Below are positions 8,506 through 13,540 of a DNA stretch of 64,000 bases, piece by piece. Numbering within the stretch: the stretch's first letter is position 1; each line of letters starts with the position of its first letter. Below the pieces are notes generated by a model. It did not search any database. It had not been told where the DNA came from and was given only the letters and a program-made list of their open reading frames with translations. The position numbers were made by a program, and so were the translations under genes. The DNA is from Bacteriovorax sp. GTDB lineage: Bacteria; Bdellovibrionota; Bacteriovoracia; Bacteriovoracales; Bacteriovoracaceae. Location: positions 1-64,000 of the forward strand of contig JACMNL010000108.1 in the NCBI GenBank assembly GCA_014378525.1. The letters are read 5' to 3'.

Positions 8506-9288
8506 ATGCGCACCTGTTTGATAACAATTTTATTTTTACTTTCTACATCAGTTCTCCACGCAAATACTCTTAAAATTGTCACTGGCGAGTATGCACCTTA
8601 TACAGGTGAAACACTTAAAGAAGGTGGTGTCAGTACCCAGGTGATCAAGGCCATTTTTTCTGAAATTAAACAGCCAATCAAAATAGAATTTATTCCATGG
8701 AACAGGGCCATGAATAATTTAAAGTCAGGCAATGCCGCAGGATCATTTCCCTGGACTAAAAATGCCGAGAGAGAAATCGATTTTTTATATTCTGAACCAC
8801 TTCATAAATATAAACTTATCAGTTATGTCAGAAATGATTCCATACTTCTGAAGACTTTTGATCTGAAAGGAAAAAAAATATGCCAGCCGAGTGGATGGGA
8901 TATTTCTTTTTTAAATGAAGCATTTGCAACAAAAAAAATTACCATCGAGCGTCCTATCAATATGGAGTCCTGTTTACAGATGGTTTCTCTCGGAAGGGTT
9001 GATATCGTCATCATGAATAATCACGTCGGCGCAGAATTTCTCAATAAATTATCTCTTAAAAATTCTCCTATCACTGGAATTGATAATGATTATTTTGGAA
9101 AAGAGTTTGCCCTTTATTTTATTGTTTCGAAAAAATACCCGAATGCTAAAAAAATAATTGCAGAATTTAACAAAGGACTGGCACTCATTAAGAGCAATGG
9201 AAAGTATGAAAAATTGACTCATGAGTTATTAAAAAAAGAAACTGTTAAATCCAGTTGCGGGACTTGTAGTCGGCTAGGGTCACTTTAA
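8506..9288 (+). CDS. Periplasmic substrate-binding protein (SBP_bac_3-like)
   Basis: Signal peptide; LKIVTGEYAPYTGETLKEGGVSTQVIKAIFSEI pattern. Confidence 0.8.
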   Translation: MRTCLITILFLLSTSVLHANTLKIVTGEYAPYTGETLKEGGVSTQVIKAIFSEIKQPIKIEFIPWNRAMNNLKSGNAAGSFPWTKNAEREIDFLYSEPLHKYKLISYVRNDSILLKTFDLKGKKICQPSGWDISFLNEAFATKKITIERPINMESCLQMVSLGRVDIVIMNNHVGAEFLNKLSLKNSPITGIDNDYFGKEFALYFIVSKKYPNAKKIIAEFNKGLALIKSNGKYEKLTHELLKKETVKSSCGTCSRLGSL

Positions 9289-10231
9289 TCGTTCTTTCAA
9301 AATTGTAATTATAGACCTGACCTAATTCCACTTCACTTTTTGTCCCGTCACAAGTCCAGTTGGTGGCCTTCAATTCATAATATTTATCGGGAGTCAGTCT
9401 GAGCGAGTGCGGACGAATCTTGTATATTAGTGCCAGGAATGACGTAAGTATTTTGAAAAAAATTAATGGTAATGGAAGATAAACCAGCCAGCTTTTTTTC
9501 AATTGCTTTTTAATCTCCATAATAATTTCATTGAACGTTACAGTCTGAGGATTAGAGCTGTAATAAAGCGATGCTTTTCTTTTCTCACAAATCAGTAAAA
9601 TTGTTTCAACTAAATCAAATACACAAACAAAACTATAAAGTTTTTCTTTTGACCCTTTTCCAGGAAGAATAACAACACCGCTTTGAACCATCTTAAAAAT
9701 ATCCAGTACGGCCGGATCGCGAGGCCCTATGACCATAGGTGGTCTCACTATAGCGGTAGTCCATGTGTTTGGTGCATTTTTCTTTAAAATTTCTTCGGCC
9801 TCTTTTTTAGAGCGGCCATAAATACTGATTGGAAAATCAATATCAACTTCAGTACGTTTTTCTGCTCCAAGACTTGGACCTGCGCCTGCAAGACTTGCAA
9901 TCAGAACGAAATGTAGTTTTTCATATTTTGTACGTAAACTGTTAACCACGTTTCCAGTGCCTTCAGCGTTTACGCGAAAAAAAACTGATTCGACATATGA
10001 ATGAACGATGCCTGCAGTATGAACACAAGTATCCAGATCAGACGGTAGAGCATTTACCCAATGAAGGATGGCCTGATCAACGTCACCTTGAATGACTGTT
10101 AATTTTGGATTTTTTAATTCAAATTTATTTGGAGATCTAACCAGAGCAAAAACTTCATGGCCTTCTTTTAACAGGCGCTCACATAAATGAGTTCCGACAA
10201 AACCACTGGCCCCTGTCACTAGTACTTTCAT
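9245..10231 (-). CDS. NAD-dependent epimerase/dehydratase-type SDR; candidate ceramide/3-ketosphinganine reductase (CerR-like)
   Basis: Rossmann MKVLVTGASGFVGTHLCERLL; YGRSKKEAE active site; operon with Spt-like and GNAT genes. Confidence 0.8.
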   Translation of the reverse strand: MKVLVTGASGFVGTHLCERLLKEGHEVFALVRSPNKFELKNPKLTVIQGDVDQAILHWVNALPSDLDTCVHTAGIVHSYVESVFFRVNAEGTGNVVNSLRTKYEKLHFVLIASLAGAGPSLGAEKRTEVDIDFPISIYGRSKKEAEEILKKNAPNTWTTAIVRPPMVIGPRDPAVLDIFKMVQSGVVILPGKGSKEKLYSFVCVFDLVETILLICEKRKASLYYSSNPQTVTFNEIIMEIKKQLKKSWLVYLPLPLIFFKILTSFLALIYKIRPHSLRLTPDKYYELKATNWTCDGTKSEVELGQVYNYNFERTIKVTLADYKSRNWI

Positions 10232-11355
10232 TAAATGTCTCTATGAACCAGGCGGTAGCGTTTATAAGCTTCACCTGACATACGAATTAGAGGTTTATTC
10301 ATCTCTACGTTTGTTTCCAGAATCCAGCTCATCTCCACATTTTTTATGCGGGGATTTTTCTGAAGCATGATCTGAAGGTTTTTATAAAGGAGAGTTTCAA
10401 GTCCCATTTTGCGGTATTCTTTTTTAATACCCATCATGATAACTCGTGCGCGGTTGATACGCGATTTTGCAGTTAAGATTTTATAAATCGCCATTGGAGA
10501 TAGATTTCCACTTGGGATTTGTTTGAAGACCTGGTTTAAGTCGGGAAGTGCAAGAATAAATCCGGCCTCAACTCCATCTACCATCGCATACTGAATTAGT
10601 GTTGGATCAGCGATTGATTTTAGATCTTTAGCTGTGTGATAAAATTCTTCTTTCGACATTGGAACGAATCCCCAGTTTTCTTCCCAGGCAGAGTTATAAA
10701 TATCAAACATGATATCCAGTTCCTTCAGCCAGTTTTTCAAATTGAGATTTCTATAAGTAATACGAGCTTTCTTTTCAGTACGGGCAGCGATGTCTAAAAT
10801 AACTTTCGGCATCTGAACATCGGGGCTCATATTGTAAGCGAGAAGATCCATCGCTTTCGTGAAACCAAGATTGCTTAGTAGTTTTTCATAATAAGGGGGA
10901 TTATATGTCATCATCACCTGTGGAGCATCGTTGTATTTGTCGACTAAAAGCCCGCACTCATAATTTGTTCCATGGTTCATCGGACCCTGCATAGAAGTCA
11001 GTCCGCATTTTTTTAAATATGTTGTAGCTGTATCGACAAGAATTTTTGCAACTTCCTGATCGTTGATAGCTTCAAAAAAGCCAAAGTGGCCGATCTTATT
11101 TTTTTCAAATTTATTGTAAGTGTGATTGTGAATCGCCATGATTCGTCCGGCGACTTTTCCATTTATTTCAGCAACCCAGGCCTTAACGTCTGCAGTTTTA
11201 TAGAATGGGTGCTTTTGATTGAGTAAATCTTTGACGGCCATTTTTAATGGCGGAACCCAATGAGGGTCATTCTTGTAGATTTTCCATGGGAAATTTACAA
11301 AAGTACTGGTGTCTTTTTTATTTTTGAGGTCCAGTTCGCGAATTGAATAACTCAT
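10231..11355 (-). CDS. GNAT-fold acyltransferase; candidate bacterial ceramide synthase (bCerS-like)
   Basis: FVNFPWKIYKNDPHWVPPL...GFFEAINDQEVAKILVDTA...GPMNHGTNYECGLLVD; TAATG overlap with the downstream SDR. Confidence 0.7.
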   Translation of the reverse strand: MSYSIRELDLKNKKDTSTFVNFPWKIYKNDPHWVPPLKMAVKDLLNQKHPFYKTADVKAWVAEINGKVAGRIMAIHNHTYNKFEKNKIGHFGFFEAINDQEVAKILVDTATTYLKKCGLTSMQGPMNHGTNYECGLLVDKYNDAPQVMMTYNPPYYEKLLSNLGFTKAMDLLAYNMSPDVQMPKVILDIAARTEKKARITYRNLNLKNWLKELDIMFDIYNSAWEENWGFVPMSKEEFYHTAKDLKSIADPTLIQYAMVDGVEAGFILALPDLNQVFKQIPSGNLSPMAIYKILTAKSRINRARVIMMGIKKEYRKMGLETLLYKNLQIMLQKNPRIKNVEMSWILETNVEMNKPLIRMSGEAYKRYRLVHRDI

Positions 11356-11371
11356 GAAGCTTCCCCTCTAA

Positions 11372-12643
11372 CTAGTGCAGGTTGCTTGGAATTTCAAAAA
11401 CTTTTTTCGCTTCTGCGAAAACTTCAAGAACTGTCGCCAGGTCTTTTTTGTCATGAGAGGCCATGTAACTTGTTCTGATTAGTGCTTCCCCTTTAGGTAC
11501 AGCAGGTGGAAGAACCGGAGTTGCAAATACGCCATTTTCTTCCAGGAATTTTGTCATCTTAACAGCTTTCATATCATCGCCAATGAAAAGCGGGATGATT
11601 GGAGTTTGCGATCCGTATGTGAAGAATCCAAGATCTTTAAATCCATTTTTCATGAACTCAACGTTTGACCATAAATTTTCAAGGATAGAAGGATCGTTTG
11701 ATACAACGTCGATACAAGCTGAAACAGTAGCAACTGCAGCAGGTGGCATTGAAGCTGAGAACATAAATGATCGTGCCGAGTGACGAACGTAATCGATTGC
11801 GTCTGCAGATCCTGAAATCACTCCACCGATTGAAGCAAAAGATTTCGAGAATGTTCCCATGTTGAAATCAACGTCTTTAACAACGTCGAAGTGGTGCATA
11901 GTACCGCGTCCCTGAGGACCCATAACTCCGAGGCCATGAGCATCGTCAACGTAGACGTAAGCGCCGTACTTTTTAGCAAGCTTTACTATTTCCGGAAGAC
12001 GTAAGATATCGCCTGTCATTGAAAAGACACCGTCAGCTACGATGATCACGCGGTTAAAGCGTGAAACGTTACTTTCTAGCAGCTCCTCAAGAGAGGCCAT
12101 ATCATTATGTTTGTATTTAAATGTTGTTCCAAGAGCGAGTCTTGAAGCATCGATGATAGAGGCGTGGTTTTCAGAGTCAAAAAGCATTAAATCTTTTGGA
12201 CCACAGATCGCTGAAAGCGCACCCAGGTTTGCCTGCATACCAGTTGAAAAAACGATCGCTTTTTCGTGGCCTAAATATTTTGCAATTTTTTCGTCTAGTT
12301 CTTCATGGATAGAAAGGTTTCCGTTTAAAAAACGTGAACCAGTACAACCAGTACCAAATTTTTCTATAGCTTTGATTGCCGCTTCCTGAACAACTGGGTG
12401 GTGAGTAAGACCAAGGTAATTGTTTGATCCGATCATGATCTGCTTTTTGCCTTTTACTGTAACAGTAGAAGCAGCAGTGTCTTCGATCGCTCTAAAGAAG
12501 AAATATAAATCATTATCACGAAGCACATTTGCGCGTTCGATAATTTTACTATCACTGAAAGGTTTTTTGGCCTTTGTGATGACGTTATTACTCATGTCTT
12601 GCTCTTTAAGAATTTCTGATGTGTTGTGTTTCATAGACGGCAA
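11372..12643 (-). CDS. Alpha-oxoamine synthase family, probable serine palmitoyltransferase
   Basis: GSNNYLGLTHHPVVQEAA, GTGCTGSRFLNGNLSIHEELDEKIA, VYVDDAHGLGVMGPQGRG, PLP lysine FSKSFASIGG; operon context favours Spt over Kbl/BioF. Confidence 0.85.
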   Translation of the reverse strand: MPSMKHNTSEILKEQDMSNNVITKAKKPFSDSKIIERANVLRDNDLYFFFRAIEDTAASTVTVKGKKQIMIGSNNYLGLTHHPVVQEAAIKAIEKFGTGCTGSRFLNGNLSIHEELDEKIAKYLGHEKAIVFSTGMQANLGALSAICGPKDLMLFDSENHASIIDASRLALGTTFKYKHNDMASLEELLESNVSRFNRVIIVADGVFSMTGDILRLPEIVKLAKKYGAYVYVDDAHGLGVMGPQGRGTMHHFDVVKDVDFNMGTFSKSFASIGGVISGSADAIDYVRHSARSFMFSASMPPAAVATVSACIDVVSNDPSILENLWSNVEFMKNGFKDLGFFTYGSQTPIIPLFIGDDMKAVKMTKFLEENGVFATPVLPPAVPKGEALIRTSYMASHDKKDLATVLEVFAEAKKVFEIPSNLH

Positions 12644-12769
12644 AACTACTCCTCTGGAGCGCTATCGTCAATTATTTAAGCCGACTGTGAAAATAATATC
12701 CTAACAATATAGTGACTAAAAAGGTACCAAAGGTTCCGTATTTATTGATCTAAGTGTTTAATGTTTAGT

Positions 12770-13540
12770 CTAGTCGACTTTCTTGGACAGGATGGTATCG
12801 AACTTCTTTTTCATCTCTTCACCACGTGCCTCGGTAGAGATCTTTATATAGAGTTCGTCCTCCGTTTTGCGTGGAAGATCTTTAAAAGCGATTCCGACTT
12901 TAACTCGTCCGCTGGGTTTACCGGTTTCATCGGCAAGGGGAATTTGAACGGCAATCTGAACCATGGGAACGTGGTAATTTTTGCGGTCGAAGCGCAACGT
13001 GCAGTCCTGAAAGATTTTACCTTTTGCGAAACGTTCAACATCAGTAGCTTCAATGTTGAAACTGGTTCCGGAAATTGAAATATCTAATGCATCAAAAACC
13101 TGTTCATCAACTTTAAATTGAATAGGGATTACATCGCTGGCGTTTAGTCGAAAATTTCCGCGGGCCTGACTCTTATATATTTCCTGCTGGATTTCCAGCG
13201 AGTATGTTAAGTCTTCAGGGTGGAATTTTAAACGTCCGCCGGTGAAATAATTAATTTTATCTTCGATAGGAACTTTGATCAAAACTTGTTTTCCTGCTTT
13301 AGTAGATCCGGTGATTTTTGTCATCAGTTTACCAGTAGGTTTTAATTTTATGATTCGTGGATTGGCGAAGTACTCAACGGCTTCATAAATTTCTGCCTTG
13401 TCTTCGTTTTCACCTTTTTCCCAGATTGTCAGAGGAGGAGAATCATCCAGCGTACAATGCATCAGCATTGTCTCAGCAAATTCATCGTGAGCTGCCACTT
13501 GAAAATAATGTTTTTTATTCGGGTCCTTCTTTTCTGTCAT
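12770..13540 (-). CDS. PilZ-domain protein (candidate c-di-GMP effector)
   Basis: RGNFR (RxxxR) followed by DISISG (D/NxSxxG). Confidence 0.7.
   Translation of the reverse strand: MTEKKDPNKKHYFQVAAHDEFAETMLMHCTLDDSPPLTIWEKGENEDKAEIYEAVEYFANPRIIKLKPTGKLMTKITGSTKAGKQVLIKVPIEDKINYFTGGRLKFHPEDLTYSLEIQQEIYKSQARGNFRLNASDVIPIQFKVDEQVFDALDISISGTSFNIEATDVERFAKGKIFQDCTLRFDRKNYHVPMVQIAVQIPLADETGKPSGRVKVGIAFKDLPRKTEDELYIKISTEARGEEMKKKFDTILSKKVD

Follow-up and report, generated by a model that had tools for sequence, protein, structure and literature searches.

Gene organisation at the locus

In a 64,000-nucleotide stretch of DNA from Bacteriovorax sp. (GenBank assembly GCA_014378525.1, contig JACMNL010000108.1, positions 1 to 64,000; hereafter the window), three tightly packed minus-strand genes encode an alpha-oxoamine synthase, a GNAT-fold protein and an epimerase-type short-chain dehydrogenase/reductase (SDR). 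A preliminary description made from the sequence alone had likened this trio to Spt, bCerS and CerR of the Caulobacter ceramide route. The arrangement it gave for positions 9245-12643, that is three minus-strand genes, a 16-bp gap and a TAATG overlap, proved exact when the open reading frames (ORFs) and their junctions were read. Together with a hydroxylase gene found nearby, the features are:

11372-12643, minus strand: spt, alpha-oxoamine synthase, predicted serine palmitoyltransferase (SPT); ORF of 423 aa from TTG, with a possible ATG at 12634
11356-11371, minus strand: 16-bp gap between the spt stop and the ATG of the GNAT gene, read from the sequence
10231-11355, minus strand: bcerS/aca-type acyltransferase of tandem GNAT fold, predicted long-chain-base N-acyltransferase; ORF of 374 aa
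10229-10233, minus strand: TAATG stop-start overlap between the GNAT and SDR genes, read from the sequence
9245-10231, minus strand: cerR/epi-type SDR, predicted ketone reductase (of oxidised ceramide or 3-ketosphinganine); ORF of 328 aa
6366-6983, plus strand: fatty-acid hydroxylase (PF04116, 205 aa), predicted ceramide fatty-acid 2-hydroxylase of Scs7/FA2H type

The TTG start of spt is preceded by AGGAG 5 bases upstream, the alternative ATG lying three codons in. Pfam assigned Aminotran_1_2 to the spt product, Acetyltransf_1 (weakly) to the GNAT protein and Epimerase to the SDR.

Predicted serine palmitoyltransferase

When Kbl and BioF served as outgroup, the spt product fell in the tree among known SPTs with support of 100/99 and not with Kbl or BioF, so its earlier designation as Spt-like holds; in the same tree, Bacteriovoracales formed a branch of their own, apart from rhodobacterial and Bacteroidota SPTs. 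Paralogues with PF00155 from the same genome were also tried as outgroup and dropped, as they had very long branches and resembled ordinary aminotransferases, and a P. veronii protein annotated as 8-amino-7-oxononanoate synthase, which looked like an outgroup member but lies within a yghO cluster, was handled as an SPT. Among PDB structures, the SPT of S. multivorum (8guh/3a2b) ranked best with 379 bits, ahead of the BioF/Kbl-type 8s1y (302 bits), the Sphingomonas SPT (253 bits), a cysteate acyltransferase (246 bits) and Kbl 1fc4 (239 bits), and the top NCBIfam model was SerpalmtaseCFB (CFB-type SPT). All the residues described around pyridoxal phosphate and serine, namely N52, S81, H138, S185, D210, H213, T241, S243 and K244 in S. 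multivorum numbering (PMC10196870), are conserved, and the GTFSKS motif, regarded as characteristic of SPTs (PMC10196870), is present.

Regarding the acyl donor, no acyl carrier protein (ACP) gene was recognised by eye among ORFs of at least 80 aa at 4-18 kb, in agreement with the preliminary description, which had noted none adjacent; over the same interval and size range, no ORF corresponded to acpR or aasR, which accompany spt in the rhodobacterial subtype. An SPT subgroup of Bacteroidetes and delta-Proteobacteria, including Bacteriovorax stolpii, has been set apart from the ACP-linked rhodobacterial subgroup (PMC9386255), and the lack of an ACP gene beside spt fits the former.

Predicted acyltransferase and reductase

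By tblastn, the GNAT protein matched E. coli YghO over its full length (34% identity across 370 aa, E 3e-69), as well as many cluster-linked homologues, likewise full length. In E. coli, YghO (ECD_02850) is orthologous to CC_1154 of Caulobacter, an acyltransferase required for ceramide (PMC9386255). The AlphaFold2 model (mean predicted local distance difference test score of 90) has tandem GNATs as its closest folds, and in a tree the cluster-linked GNATs, including YghO and a Sphingomonas protein, separated from three other homologues with support of 100/100, one very divergent, long-branched paralogue having no clear placement. The protein thus groups with bCerS as had been proposed, with E. 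coli and Sphingomonas homologues standing in for the Caulobacter sequences (here for CC_1154) as they do for the SDR. The E. coli reference came from a record in a plasmid collection that holds a complete spt-acp-epi-aas-yghO cluster, an arrangement regarded as a ceramide cluster (PMC9386255); when looked for in BL21(DE3) at 3.02-3.07 Mb, the cluster was absent from that interval.

The SDR matched the Epimerase Pfam model with 90 bits, and its TGASGFVG and YGRSK (YxxxK) motifs were read in the sequence. Its identity to the cluster SDRs of Streptomyces, Aureispira, Rubrobacter, Sphingomonas and E. coli ranges from 32 down to 23%, with 30% for Sphingomonas and 23% (3e-16) for E. coli. In a tree including GalE, RfbB, RfbD, Fcl, Gmd, RfaD and paralogues from the same genome, it fell with the cluster-linked SDRs of CerR/epi type (97/91), in keeping with its proposed role as CerR.

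Conservation of the trio

The order spt-GNAT-SDR is conserved in 20 of the 27 loci examined in relatives (contig-end fragments counted) and persists in a different family of the phylum, where identity is down to 30-50%. It also occurs in named genomes of Myxococcota, Gemmatimonadota, Bacteroidota and others, plus Actinomycetota, with Rubrobacter and Streptomyces plasmids carrying the trio in identical order; other named loci have all three genes in a different order. The closest named loci (Bacteriovorax, Halobacteriovorax, Bdellovibrionales) reach 50-53% identity and belong to a different genus. Since the same genes in the same order recur in most relatives and in other phyla, the trio is not a chance arrangement.

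Some side observations concern these comparisons. When positions 9001-12900 of the window were aligned to one related genome (G012), spt was about 90% identical at the DNA level and the GNAT and SDR genes about 74%, identity changing abruptly near 11400; recombination, strong constraint on spt or the two combined may be the cause. Another genome (L036, G006:C35) has a second bCerS-like copy that shares 68% identity with that of the window and has neither spt nor SDR beside it. In three Myxococcota loci (L075, L118 and L125) with spt, GNAT and SDR genes, a second GNAT-containing ORF lies close by, possibly for another acyltransferase step. In Roseomonas and Sphingomonas plasmids (L048, L041 and L040), a bCerS-type gene has in its vicinity lptF/lptG and a gene for either a sterol desaturase or a fatty acid desaturase; the E. 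coli ceramide cluster likewise abuts lptF/lptG, and this proximity suggests a link of sphingolipids with Lpt-type transport.

The SPT tree and active-site residues, the homology to YghO, the SDR tree and the conserved order together support the Caulobacter-type route put forward in the preliminary description; on these grounds, the operon very probably makes the ceramide backbone.

A linked Scs7-like hydroxylase

The sole PDB relatives of the hydroxylase are Scs7 structures (4zr1/4zr0, 3e-30, full length), and the histidine boxes HRYVFH, HGLHH, HYATHH and HLQHH were read in its sequence. Its gene lies at most 6 kb from a bCerS-type GNAT gene in 30 of 37 genomes of the same family and, among 241 genomes of the phylum, a bCerS-type GNAT occurs in 73 of the 77 with a strong hydroxylase match, counts that take no account of shared ancestry. 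Between the hydroxylase and the SDR, genomes of the genus itself have a histidine kinase gene, joined in some of them by a gene for a solute-binding protein; in other genera, the hydroxylase gene follows shortly past the SDR and is convergent with it. That this linkage recurs speaks for a common function, and the probable role of the Scs7-like enzyme is to hydroxylate position 2 of the amide-linked fatty acid of ceramide.

A phosphonate cluster on contig C121

Searching the same genome for phosphoenolpyruvate (PEP) mutase led to contig C121 (G000, L132:4246-14372), unlinked to the trio, where the following genes all lie on one strand:

AEP (2-aminoethylphosphonate) transaminase (PhnW): TIGR03301, above cut-off
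phosphonopyruvate decarboxylase (Ppd): TIGR03297, above cut-off
small GNAT: single-domain acetyltransferase of 174 aa
PEP mutase-nucleotidyltransferase fusion: TIGR02320 above cut-off, with the motif EDKIFPKTNS (EDKxxxxxNS)
LysE-type transporter
CDP-alcohol phosphotransferase: CDP-OH_P_transf, with DxxDGxxARx8GxxxDxxxD read in the protein
second nucleotidyltransferase
TauD dioxygenase: closest PDB relative FrbJ, closest NCBIfam model the phosphonate dioxygenase TmpA

The small GNAT, as a 174-aa single-domain acetyltransferase, was set aside as a candidate for ceramide synthesis. All 14 genomes of the genus have both PEP mutase and TauD (some as contig-end fragments), which are rare in the rest of the family; the order of PhnW, Ppd, the PEP mutase-nucleotidyltransferase fusion, LysE (in some cases), the CDP-alcohol phosphotransferase, the nucleotidyltransferase and TauD is found in at least five genera, the genus itself and four others. 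A sphingolipid with a 1-hydroxy-2-aminoethylphosphonate (HAEP) head group has been reported in Bdellovibrio (Bacteriovorax) stolpii (Watanabe 2001, as cited in PMC12366243). The predicted activities of the C121 enzymes match this structure step for step, the C1 hydroxyl included. Both the hydroxylase, within the window, and this unlinked cluster are additions to the preliminary description.

Proposed pathway

From the genes present, their homology and catalytic motifs, the conservation of their order and their co-occurrence, we infer the substrates and the order of steps as follows. Spt, the GNAT acyltransferase and the SDR would build the ceramide backbone, and the Scs7-like enzyme would hydroxylate its amide-linked fatty acid at position 2. 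In parallel, PEP mutase, phosphonopyruvate decarboxylase and AEP transaminase would yield 2-aminoethylphosphonate, which the TauD dioxygenase would hydroxylate at C1 and a nucleotidyltransferase would activate as a cytidine monophosphate (CMP) ester, from which the CDP-alcohol phosphotransferase would transfer the head group onto ceramide. We infer this acceptor from the company that the cluster keeps, and in the genus there is a somewhat better than even chance that ceramide is capped by the products of the C121 cluster. Taken as a whole, the operon, the hydroxylase and the cluster may represent a near-complete route to HAEP-ceramide, with a probability of roughly 0.55; a ceramide phosphonate transferase that would be new and an AEP 1-hydroxylase acting in biosynthesis would be part of it.

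Several points weigh against this route. The phosphonate cluster is unlinked to the operon and shares contig C121 with polysaccharide genes, and the trio is present in many relatives that lack this cluster. While all 15 genomes of the phylum with the PEP-mutase fusion also have a bCerS-type GNAT (genus-level chance of about 0.008), these statistics take no account of shared ancestry. As for the trio, the spt product scores 486 bits against the SerpalmtaseCFB model, below the strict cut-off of 640. Of the three assignments, that of the SDR to CerR is the weakest, being of moderate strength at 23-30% identity to the references, and one long-branched SDR from the same genome falls inside the cluster group of the tree.

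Alternative explanations

The sequence of the last two steps of ceramide synthesis, acylation and reduction, is disputed in the literature (PMC9386255 vs PMC11087976), and the SDR could reduce free 3-ketosphinganine prior to acylation, as in eukaryotes, rather than oxidised ceramide. Reduction first has been put forward for Caulobacter by one group (PMC9386255) and demonstrated for BT_0972, which is a different kind of SDR (PMC9278070); in Caulobacter, data on localisation and on a cerR deletion nonetheless favour acylation first (PMC11087976), and we hold the eukaryote-like order to be possible but the less probable of the two.

A further explanation accepts that the trio makes ceramide and assigns the C121 cluster to the decoration of polysaccharide or glycerolipids, the sphingolipid head group being made otherwise. 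Beyond the lack of linkage to the trio, chain-length and O-antigen-ligase-like genes also lie on C121, and a CDP-alcohol phosphotransferase could use diacylglycerol. On the other hand, the head group reported for B. stolpii is exactly hydroxylated AEP and is borne by a sphingolipid, as far as that report is cited, the cluster does include a CDP-alcohol phosphotransferase and was found only where bCerS is (15/15), and additional genera in which the C121 polysaccharide genes had no match retain its core order. This assignment to other acceptors appears the less likely one.

It is quite improbable that the trio uses an amino acid other than serine to build a related lipid, either a 1-deoxyceramide from alanine or glycine or a cysteate-derived sulfonolipid. 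Alpha-oxoamine synthases are separated by few residues, the spt product has Thr instead of Ala at position 79 (S. multivorum numbering), and many 1-deoxyceramides were found in a Black Sea bacterial community with such genes (PMC11334938); yet the SPT of the E. coli cluster likewise has Thr at this position, the cysteate acyltransferase scores below SPT (246 vs 379 bits) and a 1-deoxy base would offer no C1 hydroxyl to a phosphonate head group. Lastly, a Kbl or BioF identity of the spt product, with the GNAT and SDR genes as unrelated neighbours, was rejected as hardly credible: the scores of TIGR01825 (BioF/Kbl family, 406 bits) and of the bioF model (388 bits) are also high but both lower than that of the SPT model, the tree rooted on Kbl and BioF excludes it at 100/99, and the three genes travel as a set across phyla.

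Flanking genes

Beside the operon lies one further ORF:

12770-13540, minus strand: PilZ-like ORF upstream of spt; PilZ at E 0.022, below the Pfam cut-off

This PilZ-like ORF adjoins spt in most loci examined in the same family. At the other end, a solute-binding-protein ORF (8506-9288, plus strand) is convergent with the SDR gene and overlaps its 3' end by 44 bp (9245-9288). Scans for promoters and terminators returned site numbers similar to those in shuffled sequence.

Novelty and significance

The trio as such is not new, since Spt-bCerS-CerR has already been described, with Spt-like proteins in up to 40 phyla (PMC11334938). A literature search, thin on subscription papers, found no paper connecting Bacteriovorax with bCerS or with a phosphonate cluster, nor any that describes a genetic basis for the phosphonate head group of B. 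stolpii, and the recent papers on Bdellovibrionota genomes that were found do not mention sphingolipids. The C-P-bonded sphingolipid head group of B. stolpii has been on record since at least 2001, according to later citation. The preliminary description had suggested that the operon could supply the backbone of such sphingophosphonolipids, and the C121 cluster turns this suggested link into a testable gene set. If the HAEP-ceramide route is correct, a candidate gene can be named for every step that leads from serine and phosphoenolpyruvate to the complete lipid; besides, the role of these lipids in bacterial predation, bacterial ceramide 2-hydroxylation and the phosphonate-sphingolipid transferase would all become accessible by gene removal.

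Comparison with known systems

The ceramide genes of Caulobacter and E. coli BL21 (spt, bcerS = aca/yghO, cerR = epi, acpR and aasR) comprise homologous Spt, acyltransferase and SDR, clustered as here; the present locus differs in having the three core genes only, tightly packed as spt-bcerS-cerR with no adjacent ACP or acyl-ACP synthetase gene, and in an Spt belonging to a different SPT branch. The B. stolpii SPT A7BFV8 (Ikushiro 2007, cited in PMC6148460 and PMC8895605), probably from the same or a sister genus, has 420 aa, like the aligned SPT of a relative (G003); in these citing sources, the account for that organism deals with SPT only and describes no operon partners, hydroxylase or head-group cluster. 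The trios of Myxococcota, Rubrobacter and Streptomyces plasmids have the same genes in the same order at about 27-46% identity, those of Rubrobacter and Streptomyces showing no Scs7-like hydroxylase among the annotated adjoining genes. Compared with yeast Scs7 and human FA2H, the hydroxylase domain is alike over its full length with conserved histidine motifs, whereas the enzyme of the window is bacterial, encoded beside a ceramide operon and devoid of a cytochrome b5 domain. Finally, the C121 cluster has in common with known AEP and HAEP pathways (PepM-PntC fusions, PMC6697681; FrbJ, TmpA) the PEP mutase-nucleotidyltransferase fusion, Ppd, AEP transaminase and a TauD-family hydroxylase, to which it adds a CDP-alcohol phosphotransferase, in genomes that also carry ceramide genes.

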